From Candidatus Saccharimonadota bacterium (GTDB taxonomy: Bacteria; Patescibacteriota; Saccharimonadia; Saccharimonadales; UBA4665), in the NCBI GenBank assembly GCA_013289705.1, contig JABCZM010000002.1, forward strand, positions 78,848 to 142,847: a stretch of 64,000 nucleotides of DNA, given 5' to 3'. Both the position numbers and the translations under genes were made by a program. The number at the start of each line of letters is the position of its first letter. Position 1 is the first letter of the stretch. A model generated the notes under the pieces. The model was not told the DNA's origin. It worked only from the letters and a program-made list of their open reading frames with translations, and searched no databases. Below are positions 57,167 to 60,326 of the stretch, in pieces.

Positions 57167-57206
57167 GCCTTGCATAACGGATCTAATTATAGTATTGTAC
57201 TATCCT

Positions 57207-57278
57207 ATGAATCACGTAGTTTCACTAGTCTTAAACCGTCGCAGCTCACGTATTTTCGGGAGTTGTCCTTGTCGTTAG
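57207..57278 (+). CDS. Leader peptide with arginine codons (attenuator of GNAT-argS)
   Basis: 23 codons: MNHVVSLVLNRRSSRIFGSC then PCR and TAG. Arginine codons are CGT and CGC at 11-12 (57237-57242), CGT at 15 and CGT at 23, the last sense codon. The Arg pair lies just before RNA segment 1 of the attenuator. -10-like boxes TATAGT (57188-57193) and TACTAT (57198-57203) put the transcript start close to this ATG. Confidence 0.75.
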   Translation: MNHVVSLVLNRRSSRIFGSCPCR

Positions 57279-57328
57279 TATAAAAATAAAGTTCCTTTGA
57301 CAGCTCCCGGTAGGGAGCTTTTAATTTT
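57241..57328 (+). promoter_or_regulatory. Transcription attenuator with four competing segments
   Basis: Segment 1 GCAGCTC (57241-57247), segment 2 CGGGAGTTGTC (57257-57267), segment 3 GACAGCTCCCG (57299-57309), segment 4 GGGAGCT (57313-57319). 1 pairs with part of 2 (7 bp), 2 with 3 (11 bp, one G-U), and 3 with 4 (7-bp GC-rich terminator stem, loop GGTA, then TTTTAATTTT). A ribosome stalled at the Arg codons would cover segment 1 and free 2 to pair with 3, preventing termination; an unstalled one reaching the stop codon at 57276 would cover 2 and let the terminator form. Confidence 0.8.
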
Positions 57329-57342
57329 AAACGGAACATCAC

Positions 57343-57858
57343 ATGAAACCATATTTTAGAAACTACAGCCCAAAAGGCCCCGACTACGGGAAGATAATTG
57401 CACAGCTAAATACCTGGTCCGTGGGCTCAGGCACCATGAAAGAGATCACTGCAGAATCGGCAGCCGGCTATCCATATAGACTATCTGCACACGAGCCTGG
57501 AACGGGTGTATTACTTGGCAACATTGCCGTTACCAATTACCAGCTTGATGGTCACGTAACGCTGGGTGCGCACGTGACGAATCCGGCATATTTACGTCAG
57601 GGCATTGGTGCCGCCTTACTTGGTGAGGCGCTTGGTGAGCTATTCCATGTCTTGCCAGATATGCAGTCGTGTGTGGCGTATGTAAATAAGCAAAGTCTGC
57701 CAATCTATCTGGCTACAGGCGGGGAGCTGAACGAAAGAGAACGAGATGTCATAACTGGTTGTAACTACGTTGTTGACATGCTGGTTCCAGCTCAGGAAGC
57801 AGGTTGGGCGCGCGGCTATGGACTTGCCACGGTTCATTCGATAGCGGAGGTAAGATAA
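57343..57858 (+). CDS. GNAT-family N-acetyltransferase
   Basis: 171 residues. Acetyl-CoA-dependent transferase fold: VTLGAHVTNPAYLRQGIGAA contains the R/Q-x-x-G-x-G/A acetyl-CoA loop (RQGIGAALLGEAL). Substrate unknown. It is the first gene after the arginine-type attenuator and 29 bases before argS, so it may be part of arginine or arginyl-tRNA physiology; acetylation of arginine or of a peptide N-terminus are possible but unsupported. Confidence 0.8.
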   Translation: MKPYFRNYSPKGPDYGKIIAQLNTWSVGSGTMKEITAESAAGYPYRLSAHEPGTGVLLGNIAVTNYQLDGHVTLGAHVTNPAYLRQGIGAALLGEALGELFHVLPDMQSCVAYVNKQSLPIYLATGGELNERERDVITGCNYVVDMLVPAQEAGWARGYGLATVHSIAEVR

Positions 57859-57887
57859 GTGCTCGGCTTACTATATAATGGAGTGTA

Positions 57888-59558
57888 ATGAAACAAGAAT
57901 TAGAACAAGCCATGCAAGCGGCAGTGAAAGATTTGTTCGGTACAAGTATTGCGATTGAACTCACGCGGCCCGATGAACAATTTGGTGACTATGCTACCAA
58001 TGTGGCGCTGCAGCTGAGTAAACAGGTTGGCAAAAACCCGCGCGAAATAGCCGAGGCGCTAGCCGTGAAACTGCGTGAAACCCTAGCCAAGAAGCTCGCA
58101 TCTGTATCTGTTGCGGGGCCGGGTTTTTTGAACCTTACATTGTCCGATAATGCGCTCGTAAACGGGCTATTGAGCAAACCGGCACAGCCGTACGCTGGCA
58201 AAACGGTAGTGACGGAATACTCTGATCCAAACATCTTCAAGCCCCTACACGCTGGCCACCTCTACACAACATTGGTTGGCGATTGTGTATCGCGCTTATT
58301 TGAACGAGCCGGTGCCACGGTAGTACGGATTAATTACGGCGGCGATGTTGGCCTGCATGTTGGCAAGACTATGTGGGCGATTGTAAGGTATTTGGGTGGT
58401 GAGCACCCTGAAAAACTTAGTGAAGTTTTGGAAGCAGGGCGTGCAGCTTGGCTTGGTGCCCGCTATGTTGAAGGTAATGCTGCCTATGAGGACGACGAAG
58501 CTGCTAAACAGGAAATTATCGCTGCCAACAAGCATGCCTACCAGCTTCATGCCGAAAATGACTACGATTCAGCCTTTGCGCAGATCTACTGGACCTGCCG
58601 AACATGGAGCTACGATTACTTCGGTGTGCTGTACGAACAGCTCCAAGTGCATCCCTTTGAACGCTATATTCCAGAGAGCGAAGTAACTCCCATTGGCCTG
58701 CAGACAGTACGGGAACAATTAGCCGCCGGTGTGTACGAAGAGAGCGACGGCGCAGTTATTTTTGATGGCGAGAAGTATGGTTTGCATGCCAGAGTATTCA
58801 TCAACGCGGCCGGCTTGCCAACCTACGAAGCCAAAGAAGTTGGTCTGAGCATTATAAAGTGGCACGATTATCACCCCGATTTGTCGGTCATTATCACCGG
58901 CAACGACATTACGGAGTACATGAAGGTGGTCATGAAATCTATCGAGCAGTATGAGCCGGATTTTGCGCATGTCACCAAACATTTGCCACACGGTAATGTC
59001 AAATTGGCCGGTGGCGTAAAGATGAGTTCGCGCAAGGGCAACGTACTGCTTGCATTGGATATTATTGATGCCGCACAACAGGCTGGCCATGAGAGTGGTC
59101 GAAATCCATCCGAAGATAGTATCTTGGCTGCCGTTAAATATGCCTTGGTTAAAAGCCGCATAGGTGGCGATATTATCTATGATCCTAAGGAGTCAATTGC
59201 GCTAGAAGGGAATAGTGGCCCATATCTGCAATATGCCCATGCCAGGGCTCGCAGTATTTTGGCAAAAGCCGAATCTGCCGAGACCGAATTAAATAATCTG
59301 GAACCTGCGGAACGGTCGCTGCTACGAAAAATTACCGAATATACAGAGGTAATCGACAAGGCCGTGGCCGACCTGATGCCACATCACATCTGCACATATT
59401 TGTACGAGCTTGCCCAAACGTTCAACCGTTTTTACGAGCACAATCGAGTTATTGATGATCCGCGCCAGGCTGTTCGTTTGCAGTTAGTGACGCACTATGC
59501 AGAAACGCTGAAAAATGGCTTACAGCTTTTAGGGATTACTGCCCCAGAGCGGATGTAG
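57888..59558 (+). CDS. argS: Arginyl-tRNA synthetase
   Basis: 556 residues, normal length. Class I synthetase charging tRNA-Arg. N-terminal Arg-S domain with DEQFGDYATNVALQLSKQVG; HIGH motif PNIFKPLHAGHLYTTLVGD; KMSK-type KMSSRKGNVL; a DALR anticodon-binding domain at the end (YLYELAQTFNRFYEHNRVID). An internal TATAAT (57874-57879) ends eight bases before the ATG, so argS probably has both a promoter of its own and read-through from the attenuator-controlled unit. Confidence 0.96.
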   Translation: MKQELEQAMQAAVKDLFGTSIAIELTRPDEQFGDYATNVALQLSKQVGKNPREIAEALAVKLRETLAKKLASVSVAGPGFLNLTLSDNALVNGLLSKPAQPYAGKTVVTEYSDPNIFKPLHAGHLYTTLVGDCVSRLFERAGATVVRINYGGDVGLHVGKTMWAIVRYLGGEHPEKLSEVLEAGRAAWLGARYVEGNAAYEDDEAAKQEIIAANKHAYQLHAENDYDSAFAQIYWTCRTWSYDYFGVLYEQLQVHPFERYIPESEVTPIGLQTVREQLAAGVYEESDGAVIFDGEKYGLHARVFINAAGLPTYEAKEVGLSIIKWHDYHPDLSVIITGNDITEYMKVVMKSIEQYEPDFAHVTKHLPHGNVKLAGGVKMSSRKGNVLLALDIIDAAQQAGHESGRNPSEDSILAAVKYALVKSRIGGDIIYDPKESIALEGNSGPYLQYAHARARSILAKAESAETELNNLEPAERSLLRKITEYTEVIDKAVADLMPHHICTYLYELAQTFNRFYEHNRVIDDPRQAVRLQLVTHYAETLKNGLQLLGITAPERM

Positions 59559-59636: not shown

Positions 59637-59939
59637 ATGACAACGGTTACAGCCAAACAATTACGCGAAAACTTGAGCCTGTATCTAGATCGTATGGAGG
59701 CTGGCGAAGAAATCGCGGTTATTCGGCATTCAGCAATAATTGGTCGGCTCAAGCCTGCTCAGAAAGCGCGGAAAGGTAATGGCATGGCGGTCGTGGCCGC
59801 AATAGGTGAATATCATAAATATCTAGATGACAATGGTATAAAGTTTGACGTTGACCTCAATAAATCAGTGAAAGAACTCTACCATGAGGCACTGAATAAC
59901 GATCCAAAATACGCACAATACGTCACGAAACGGCGGTAA
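59637..59939 (+). CDS. Phd/YefM-type antitoxin
   Basis: 100 residues. MTTVTAKQLRENLSLYLDRM and EEIAVIRHSAIIGRLKP give the Phd pattern (VTAKQLREN....L.....G..I.V.R....IG.L.P). The C-terminal half is longer than usual and Lys/Asp-rich. Nine bases before the PIN gene. Confidence 0.85.
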   Translation: MTTVTAKQLRENLSLYLDRMEAGEEIAVIRHSAIIGRLKPAQKARKGNGMAVVAAIGEYHKYLDDNGIKFDVDLNKSVKELYHEALNNDPKYAQYVTKRR

Positions 59940-59948
59940 GCGTTACTT

Positions 59949-60326
59949 ATGGAACGTATCTTTGTTGATGCTAACGTTATTTTAGAAATTATGCTTCGCC
60001 GAAGGCACTATAGGGAGGCGCTTAAGGCATTAGCTGTCCCTGACCGCTATTTTGTCATTAGCCCACTTACCGTACATCTATGTTATTACTTTTGTTTGCG
60101 TGAAAATGTTGATTTCAAAGCAGTTTCAAAAATTCTTGCTGCATTTGAAGTTTTGCCTATGAACGGGCAGACGGTGCAGCTAGCCCAGGAACGCTGTGAC
60201 GGGAATGATTTTGAAGATTGTCTCCAATCGGTTTGTGCCGAACTTGGTGGTTGTGATGGAATTATTACCTTGGATAAAAAGTTCCAAAAGTACAGTGGCA
60301 CTCCATTACCGGTAGCGGTTTTATAA
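59949..60326 (+). CDS. PIN-domain toxin ribonuclease
   Basis: 125 residues. Catalytic acids: D7 in IFVDANVILEIML, E13, D in NDFEDCLQSVCA and D in IITLDKKFQKY. Layout equals the PIN protein at 34792 (DANV-LEI, FED-LQ, TLD), so the two toxin-antitoxin pairs are related. Confidence 0.87.
   Translation: MERIFVDANVILEIMLRRRHYREALKALAVPDRYFVISPLTVHLCYYFCLRENVDFKAVSKILAAFEVLPMNGQTVQLAQERCDGNDFEDCLQSVCAELGGCDGIITLDKKFQKYSGTPLPVAVL

Follow-up and report, generated by a model that had tools for sequence, protein, structure and literature searches.

Positions 57207-57328 (plus strand) of the window, by which we mean the whole 64-kb stretch of DNA that was analysed, precede two genes on the same strand: one encoding a GNAT-family acetyltransferase of 171 amino acids (57343-57858; a PF00583 match at E = 0.0063, which falls short of the curated cut-off) and argS, which encodes arginyl-tRNA synthetase (57888-59558; PF00750, PF05746, PF03485) and is the distal gene of the unit. 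A pair of genes for a Phd/YefM-like antitoxin and a PIN-domain toxin lies directly 3' of argS (59637-60326).

The region opens with a short ORF of 23 codons (57207-57278, with the stop codon at 57276-57278) for the leader peptide MNHVVSLVLNRRSSRIFGSCPCR, which carries Arg codons at positions 11, 12, 15 and 23 and has homologous leaders at 23 other places. Arg11 (CGT) and Arg12 (CGC), at 57237-57242, are the control codons, and this pair is present in all relatives; Arg15 (CGT, 57249-57251) also lies within the distal part of the first of three possible helices. In this helix (1:2, -10.4 kcal/mol) segment 1 (CAGCTC, 57242-57247), which begins at the last base of codon 12, pairs with segment 2 (TCGGGAGTTGTC, 57256-57267). 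Segment 2 can also pair with segment 3 (GACAGCTCCCGG, 57299-57310) in an antiterminator (2:3, -18.4 kcal/mol), and segment 3 with segment 4 (57313-57319) in an intrinsic terminator (3:4, -13.4 kcal/mol; AGCTCCC-GGTA-GGGAGCT with the tail TTTAATTTT, 57302-57328, stem 57302-57319). The terminator and its U-run end 14 nt 5' of the GNAT start codon, and a similar arrangement is seen in relatives. All of these elements, including the start of segment 1 on the last base of the second Arg codon, had been proposed in the original prediction and were confirmed base by base. When both strands of the 64 kb were scanned, 20 terminator-like sites were identified. An antiterminator of 7 bp or more lay upstream of two of them, and 57207-57328 alone combined this with a short ORF that traverses segment 2.

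The candidate -10 box of a leader promoter, read directly from the sequence, is TATAGT (57188-57193) or TATTGT (57193-57198), 8-13 nt 5' of the leader ATG. No promoter was reported at the leader by a simple sigma-70 search, and no Shine-Dalgarno sequence was seen before the window leader ORF on reading the sequence. In 13 of the 24 leaders, 6-7 nt separate the end of the best -10 match from the ATG, and most relatives show a 5/6 or 6/6 match to TATAAT near the leader ATG; this proximity suggests leaderless translation, and it seems likely, in the absence of a mapped transcription start site, that the leader ORF is read from a leaderless or nearly leaderless mRNA. More generally, -10 boxes stand 5-9 nt 5' of many start codons (argS and leader ORFs, in the window at 57867-57890 and in relatives), a spacing pointing to widespread leaderless mRNAs in the lineage.

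Occurrence and conservation of the leader

The GNAT homologue is rare, being found in 3 of 149 relatives, own genome included. In the two others (G031 and G118) a homologous leader and terminator occupy the same site after a DUF1361 gene and before the homologous GNAT gene, with the leader peptides MDFTVSPTTNRRSPRIPGGCPCN and MSKFTDNFEARRSSRIHGSWAFSC, respectively. In many other relatives argS directly follows DUF1361, with a TATACT box a few bases 5' of its ATG, so that the leader and its downstream genes fill a junction that otherwise holds nothing.

The three leaders were used to build a covariance model (R1), which yielded a distinct group of strong matches when searched against 393 genomes of the order; G162 was added to these as a secure match with a refined model (R2). 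This brought the total to 24 leaders (the three founders and 21 more) in 22 genomes and 9 families. Beyond the order, class- and phylum-wide searches gave no match better than about 1e-5. We note that E-values stem from short calibrations of the covariance models, and that Arg conservation, E-values and counts are not independent, owing to shared ancestry. Single weak matches, with bit scores under 40, were inspected individually and mostly discarded. The own genome carries two copies, the one in the window and a second (G000:C5:101916-102010) with the leader peptide MISNYSILVGIRRSYRITGGCS, which precedes genes for a GNAT-like protein and an AstE/AspA-like deacylase. It also holds a weak R2 match of 37 bits (G000:C4:52647-52743), in which an overlapping ORF, MQYIQLPATGTAKKATSGSCFAIA, has no Arg codons and a strong terminator stands before a 360-aa gene.

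All 24 leaders consist of an ORF of 15-25 codons with at least three Arg codons and an Arg cluster immediately before segment 1, typically RRSxRI, the cluster being shifted in some cases (YRRLSPRI in G016, RSSRRI in G116, SSRRTRI in G134 and VRRTRI in G162). Arg accounts for 80 of 517 leader codons (15.5%), versus 4.0% in the downstream ORFs. The third base of these codons varies (CGC 37, CGT 36, CGA 7), while CGG, AGA and AGG, which account for 46% of the Arg codons of the downstream ORFs, are absent from the 80 leader Arg codons. The window encodes a tRNA-Arg with anticodon GCG, expected under standard decoding to read CGC and CGT. Since Arg11 lies outside all helices, decoding is the best explanation for its conservation, whereas that of Arg15, which also takes part in the distal 1:2 helix, is partly structural; conservation of codons 13-20 likewise arises in part from RNA structure.

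Covariation was analyzed on an RNA alignment of 23 leaders that had been fitted to helices 1:2 and 3:4, but not to 2:3. Unconstrained RNAalifold recovered 2:3 from these 23 leaders, and 6 of its 10 pairs showed compensatory changes; 95.2% of its cells were paired, and its covariation was 0.418 versus 0.230 (sd 0.021) in shuffles. The corresponding values were 83.3% and 0.280 versus 0.210 (sd 0.021) for 1:2, where 4 of 6 pairs showed compensatory changes, and 95.6% and 0.343 versus 0.150 (sd 0.025) for 3:4 (3 of 7 pairs). Control helices slid along the alignment scored far lower in all three cases. Compensatory changes in relatives thus back the mutually exclusive 1:2, 2:3 and 3:4 pairing that had been predicted from a single sequence, and the losses that would have refuted it, of the leader frame, the Arg codons or the 2:3 and 3:4 pairing, were absent from the aligned relatives.

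The geometry of the leader is likewise maintained. In nearly every leader the distance from the first Arg-cluster codon to the start of segment 2 is 19-21 nt, and all rows of the alignment are ungapped from the Arg codons to segment 2. The leader stop codon lies 2-18 nt 3' of segment 2 where segments could be reliably assigned, and inside segment 2 in G134 and G163 (for G163, G165, G181 and G134 segments were taken from the alignment and not from the automatic assignment). This placement fits a ribosome that hides segment 1, and not segment 2, when stalled at the control codons, and hides segment 2 when it reaches the stop codon.

Downstream genes and a second arginine leader

Arginine genes predominate behind the leader (argB, argC, argD, argF, argG, argH, argJ and argS). 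The order in G020 is argH-argF-argJ-(gap)-argD-argC, with argS further downstream; others are argH-argG-argS (G174a, G168, G162), argG-argH (G181), argG alone (G163) and argB-argS (G016). GNAT genes are followed by argG (G134, G118), by argB-argS (G031) or, where the product is a GNAT or GNAT-like protein, by argS (G170, G117, G158 with a truncated or frame-shifted GNAT, and the window); in G180 and G165 the target is a GNAT gene. In G151, G157 and the second own copy a GNAT gene precedes one for an AstE/AspA-like deacylase, and in G116, G140, G164, G145 and G174b the target is an Asp/Glu-racemase-like gene, in some cases behind another small gene. Arginine forms the common thread of the regulated genes, a link that is not established for the racemase-like and deacylase targets. 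That relatives place genuine arginine-biosynthesis genes under the same element lends support to the attenuator reading of the original prediction, although the response to arginine starvation is untested.

The GNAT homologues of G031 and G118 precede argB and argG, respectively, and the GNAT is possibly an N-acetylglutamate synthase-type enzyme, an inference that rests on gene neighbourhoods only. Profile searches with the GNAT gave only a generic GNAT match, and a PDB search with ten leader-linked GNATs returned generic acetyltransferases, with acetylglutamate synthase as a weak match (E = 0.0094). The GNAT alone gave a poor structure model (pLDDT 43), and a search of the genome contigs with its protein sequence produced no match. 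It had also been suggested that an internal TATAAT before argS may partly bypass the terminator and leave the GNAT as the main target. Such a promoter-like box is indeed present at 57874-57879, 8 nt 5' of the argS ATG, and has a TATACT equivalent in relatives without the leader, where argS follows DUF1361; it indicates that the attenuator mainly controls the GNAT here.

Among 295 genomes of the order, 22 carry argG above the cut-off, and the own genome is not one of them. Seven of the 22 have an Arg leader of the window type. Four more, all of family f35, have a different leader with RRR or RRRR before argG-argH operons (L173, L174, L175 and L176; among them the leader peptides MTYRHNIVIVARRRRSDSEG, MTYRISTSVIRRRSLS, MTTTHNVIRRRRSLAEG and MSYHQFADFRRRLRH). 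Each combines a terminator with a GAGGGC/GCCCTC antiterminator, and this type could not be aligned with that of the window; a model of the RRRR leaders (R3) found with confidence only its four founders. Two unrelated leader types that have in common only Arg codons and logic argue strongly for Arg decoding as the signal. No Arg leader was found before the argG type of about 550 aa (G006, G077, G020, G022, G046, G018). This longer argG, which extends beyond the 394-position model, occurs in family f1 (L148, L151, L154, L155, L166 and L167).

Proposed mechanism and alternative explanations

The sequence, its conservation, the covariation, the placement of the codons and the identity of the downstream genes are direct observations. 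On their basis we interpret 57207-57328 as a putative ribosome-mediated transcription attenuator that senses charged tRNA-Arg, a reading to which we assign a probability of roughly 0.88. Leader translation, ribosome stalling, termination and the direction of the response are inferred, with no transcript, ribosome-profiling or expression data at hand. Transcription would start at or shortly 5' of the leader AUG, with a ribosome trailing the polymerase. With ample Arg-tRNA, the ribosome would pass codons 11-12 and reach the stop codon, covering segment 2, so that the 3:4 terminator could form and the transcript would end near 57328. If Arg-tRNA were scarce, the ribosome would stall with Arg11 or Arg12 in its A site and cover segment 1, leaving segment 2 free; the 2:3 helix would then form first and block the terminator, and the polymerase would continue into the GNAT gene and then argS. 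In the absence of translation both 1:2 and 3:4 would be expected to form and terminate transcription. Low Arg-tRNA should therefore open expression of the GNAT and partly of argS, and ample arginine should shut it.

Folding of the RNA left free by the ribosome footprint was examined for these states. If the ribosome stalls at codon 11 or 12, the RNA is free from about 57251-57254, and 2:3 is the predicted fold until segment 4 is present; with the ribosome at the stop codon segment 2 is hidden and only 3:4 can form. When the codon 11-12 footprint was removed and the complete downstream RNA folded, the terminator was slightly favoured (-19.5 kcal/mol), which implies that antitermination would be kinetic and would need 2:3 to form first, as in the model of the trp attenuator (PMC1183508). 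Some observations count against the proposal: the own genome has no argG, and the organism is thus probably not a full prototroph; the benefit of regulating a lone GNAT is not evident; and some leaders precede racemase-like or deacylase genes without an established link to arginine.

Most of the 24 leaders resemble one another in the RRSxRIxG(G/S)C segment, including Cys residues near the end, as would be expected if the nascent peptide, alone or with a ligand, arrested the ribosome, or if the Cys codons close to its end sensed cysteine. However, the conserved codons 13-20 overlap segments 1 and 2 and are constrained by pairing, and the leaders of G163 (RRRSTRI) and G134 (SSRRTRI) stop ahead of the Gly-Cys tail, which in G162 is replaced by ESGACNI. 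Moreover, the Arg leaders of family f35 share only their Arg run (MTTTHNVIRRRRSLAEG and MSYHQFADFRRRLRH), the Arg-Leu-Arg motif of the macrolide type is absent, and the genes controlled relate to arginine and not to cysteine. We thus consider an arrest peptide or a cysteine sensor improbable.

Still less credit can be given to the view that the terminator merely ends the DUF1361 transcript, that the leader frame and alternative pairing arose by chance, and that the GNAT gene and argS depend on other promoters. The element does lie just 3' of DUF1361 in the window and in the two closest GNAT loci, and the folding energy of the whole leader is unremarkable (z = -1.42); the latter is what is expected of a switch, and stability by itself is therefore uninformative. 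Against this, the element occurs at 24 places, most of them with quite different upstream genes, all three helices covary, and relatives without the leader have DUF1361 followed directly by argS without a terminator, so that the comparative sequence data already contradict this explanation. Control of the terminator by a T-box, a riboswitch or an RNA-binding protein, with no role for the ORF, is similarly hard to sustain. Other RNA control of arg genes does exist in the order, as indicated by a T-box-like element before argH-argG in G191 (L170:3528-3665, minus strand; RF00230, 32.7 bits, below the curated 93). Nevertheless, no Rfam family matched the window leader at gathering thresholds, the T-box covariance model (RF00230) had no match in the window, and the space between the leader ATG and the terminator is too small for T-box domains. 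The first and second positions of Arg11 are conserved, its third is free, and it lies outside the helices, which points to decoding of the ORF.

Relation to known attenuators and other leaders

Arginine control in bacteria is usually ascribed to repressors of the ArgR/AhrC type or to T-boxes, and we know of no codon-reading bacterial attenuator for arginine biosynthesis. The putative Arg attenuator of the window resembles the amino-acid attenuators of E. coli trp and his and of actinobacterial trp, trpS and leuS (PMC1262725; model in PMC1183508) in its short leader ORF with clustered control codons adjoining segment 1, in its exclusive 1:2, 2:3 and 3:4 pairing and terminator, and in controlling genes for the synthesis or use of the amino acid that is sensed. 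It differs from them in that its leader ORF appears to be nearly leaderless and its targets include GNAT, deacylase and racemase-like genes; in addition, it occurs in Saccharibacteria and would be specific for arginine, which is absent from the attenuators listed in PMC1262725. According to that survey, arginine operons of Actinobacteria have no conserved upstream RNA structures, and only T-boxes are named for arginine elsewhere (PMC1262725); arginine is unmentioned in a broad terminator survey (PMC2965389), and a survey of non-coding RNAs in 26 genomes includes no arginine leader peptide (PMC8632094). Literature searches for arginine attenuators in Saccharibacteria, which did not cover most subscription journals, gave nothing relevant.

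The closest counterparts differ in mechanism or in amino acid. Salmonella speF orf34 is a short upstream ORF with two consecutive Arg codons (12, 13), in which pausing at low arginine alters RNA folding, but it controls an ornithine decarboxylase through Rho, sequestration of the ribosome-binding site and RNase G, with no intrinsic terminator switch (PMC6386406). This type is defined by the core HIRRT of DUF2618 and by an ornithine decarboxylase gene behind it (PMC6386406), a definition that does not fit the window, which has RRSSRIFGSCPCR and GNAT-argS. Arginine T-box leaders (mentioned in PMC1262725) likewise read Arg-tRNA charging and switch a terminator before arg genes, but do so by direct binding of uncharged tRNA and without a leader ORF. 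The uORFC-8-2 before cysS shares tandem cognate codons ahead of a synthetase gene, but concerns cysteine and alphaproteobacteria (PMC8632094).

Since no earlier arginine case emerged from surveys or searches, the element would represent a classical mechanism with a new amino acid in a new phylum, extending leader-peptide control to Patescibacteria. With nine families carrying it and a second, independent type in a tenth, the reduced, host-dependent Saccharibacteria probably sense arginine actively. The long-standing question of arginine exchange with their hosts thereby becomes testable, and the element can serve as a marker in the annotation of GNAT, racemase-like and deacylase genes of unknown function that share this switch. 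We offer only as a working hypothesis, somewhat short of even odds, that Saccharibacteria possess a leaderless Arg-attenuator starvation regulon that spans biosynthesis, GNAT-deacylase pairs and Asp/Glu-racemase-like enzymes of unknown function and amounts to a means, not described before, by which host-dependent cells without argG obtain or spare arginine. The scaffold may likewise have been re-coded for other amino acids, given the Trp- and Phe-type leaders of the same genomes.

Leaders with other codons were also observed in the order. A second family has Trp codons at the place of the Arg codons and the same antiterminator/terminator logic (L133 in G099, L134 in G119, L135 in G006, L142 in G175 and L143 in G046; leader peptides MKTTTIITNFGQQGAWQSSRYLRESI and MKQKIVITGFGQQGAWWNSRYAWECS among others). 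Some of these leaders carry a Shine-Dalgarno-like GAGGAAACAGTAATG, the third gene in G099 is TrpS-like, and they are probable Trp attenuators. The leader MKQIMHYYFGFWFTDTAKAASF with its terminator (L187, G174:C21:9600-9697), a probable Phe-type attenuator, precedes LysE-like transporter and prephenate-dehydratase-like genes, named by eye only. Short ORFs followed by a terminator also stand before genes of unknown function, one rich in Leu/Val (MKSVMKNNLLLVEVLITR; L185, G031:C51:1466-1565) and one rich in Phe (containing TAAVFFGFTSFIQAV; L183, G104:C9:13703-13802). Finally, the leader MSNPNCNSHHNNHYRVRISGGCS (L144, G029:C47:3535-3624) combines several His codons with Arg on the same scaffold, a possible case of mixed or changed specificity, and is followed by a 474-aa ORF, with argS further downstream.
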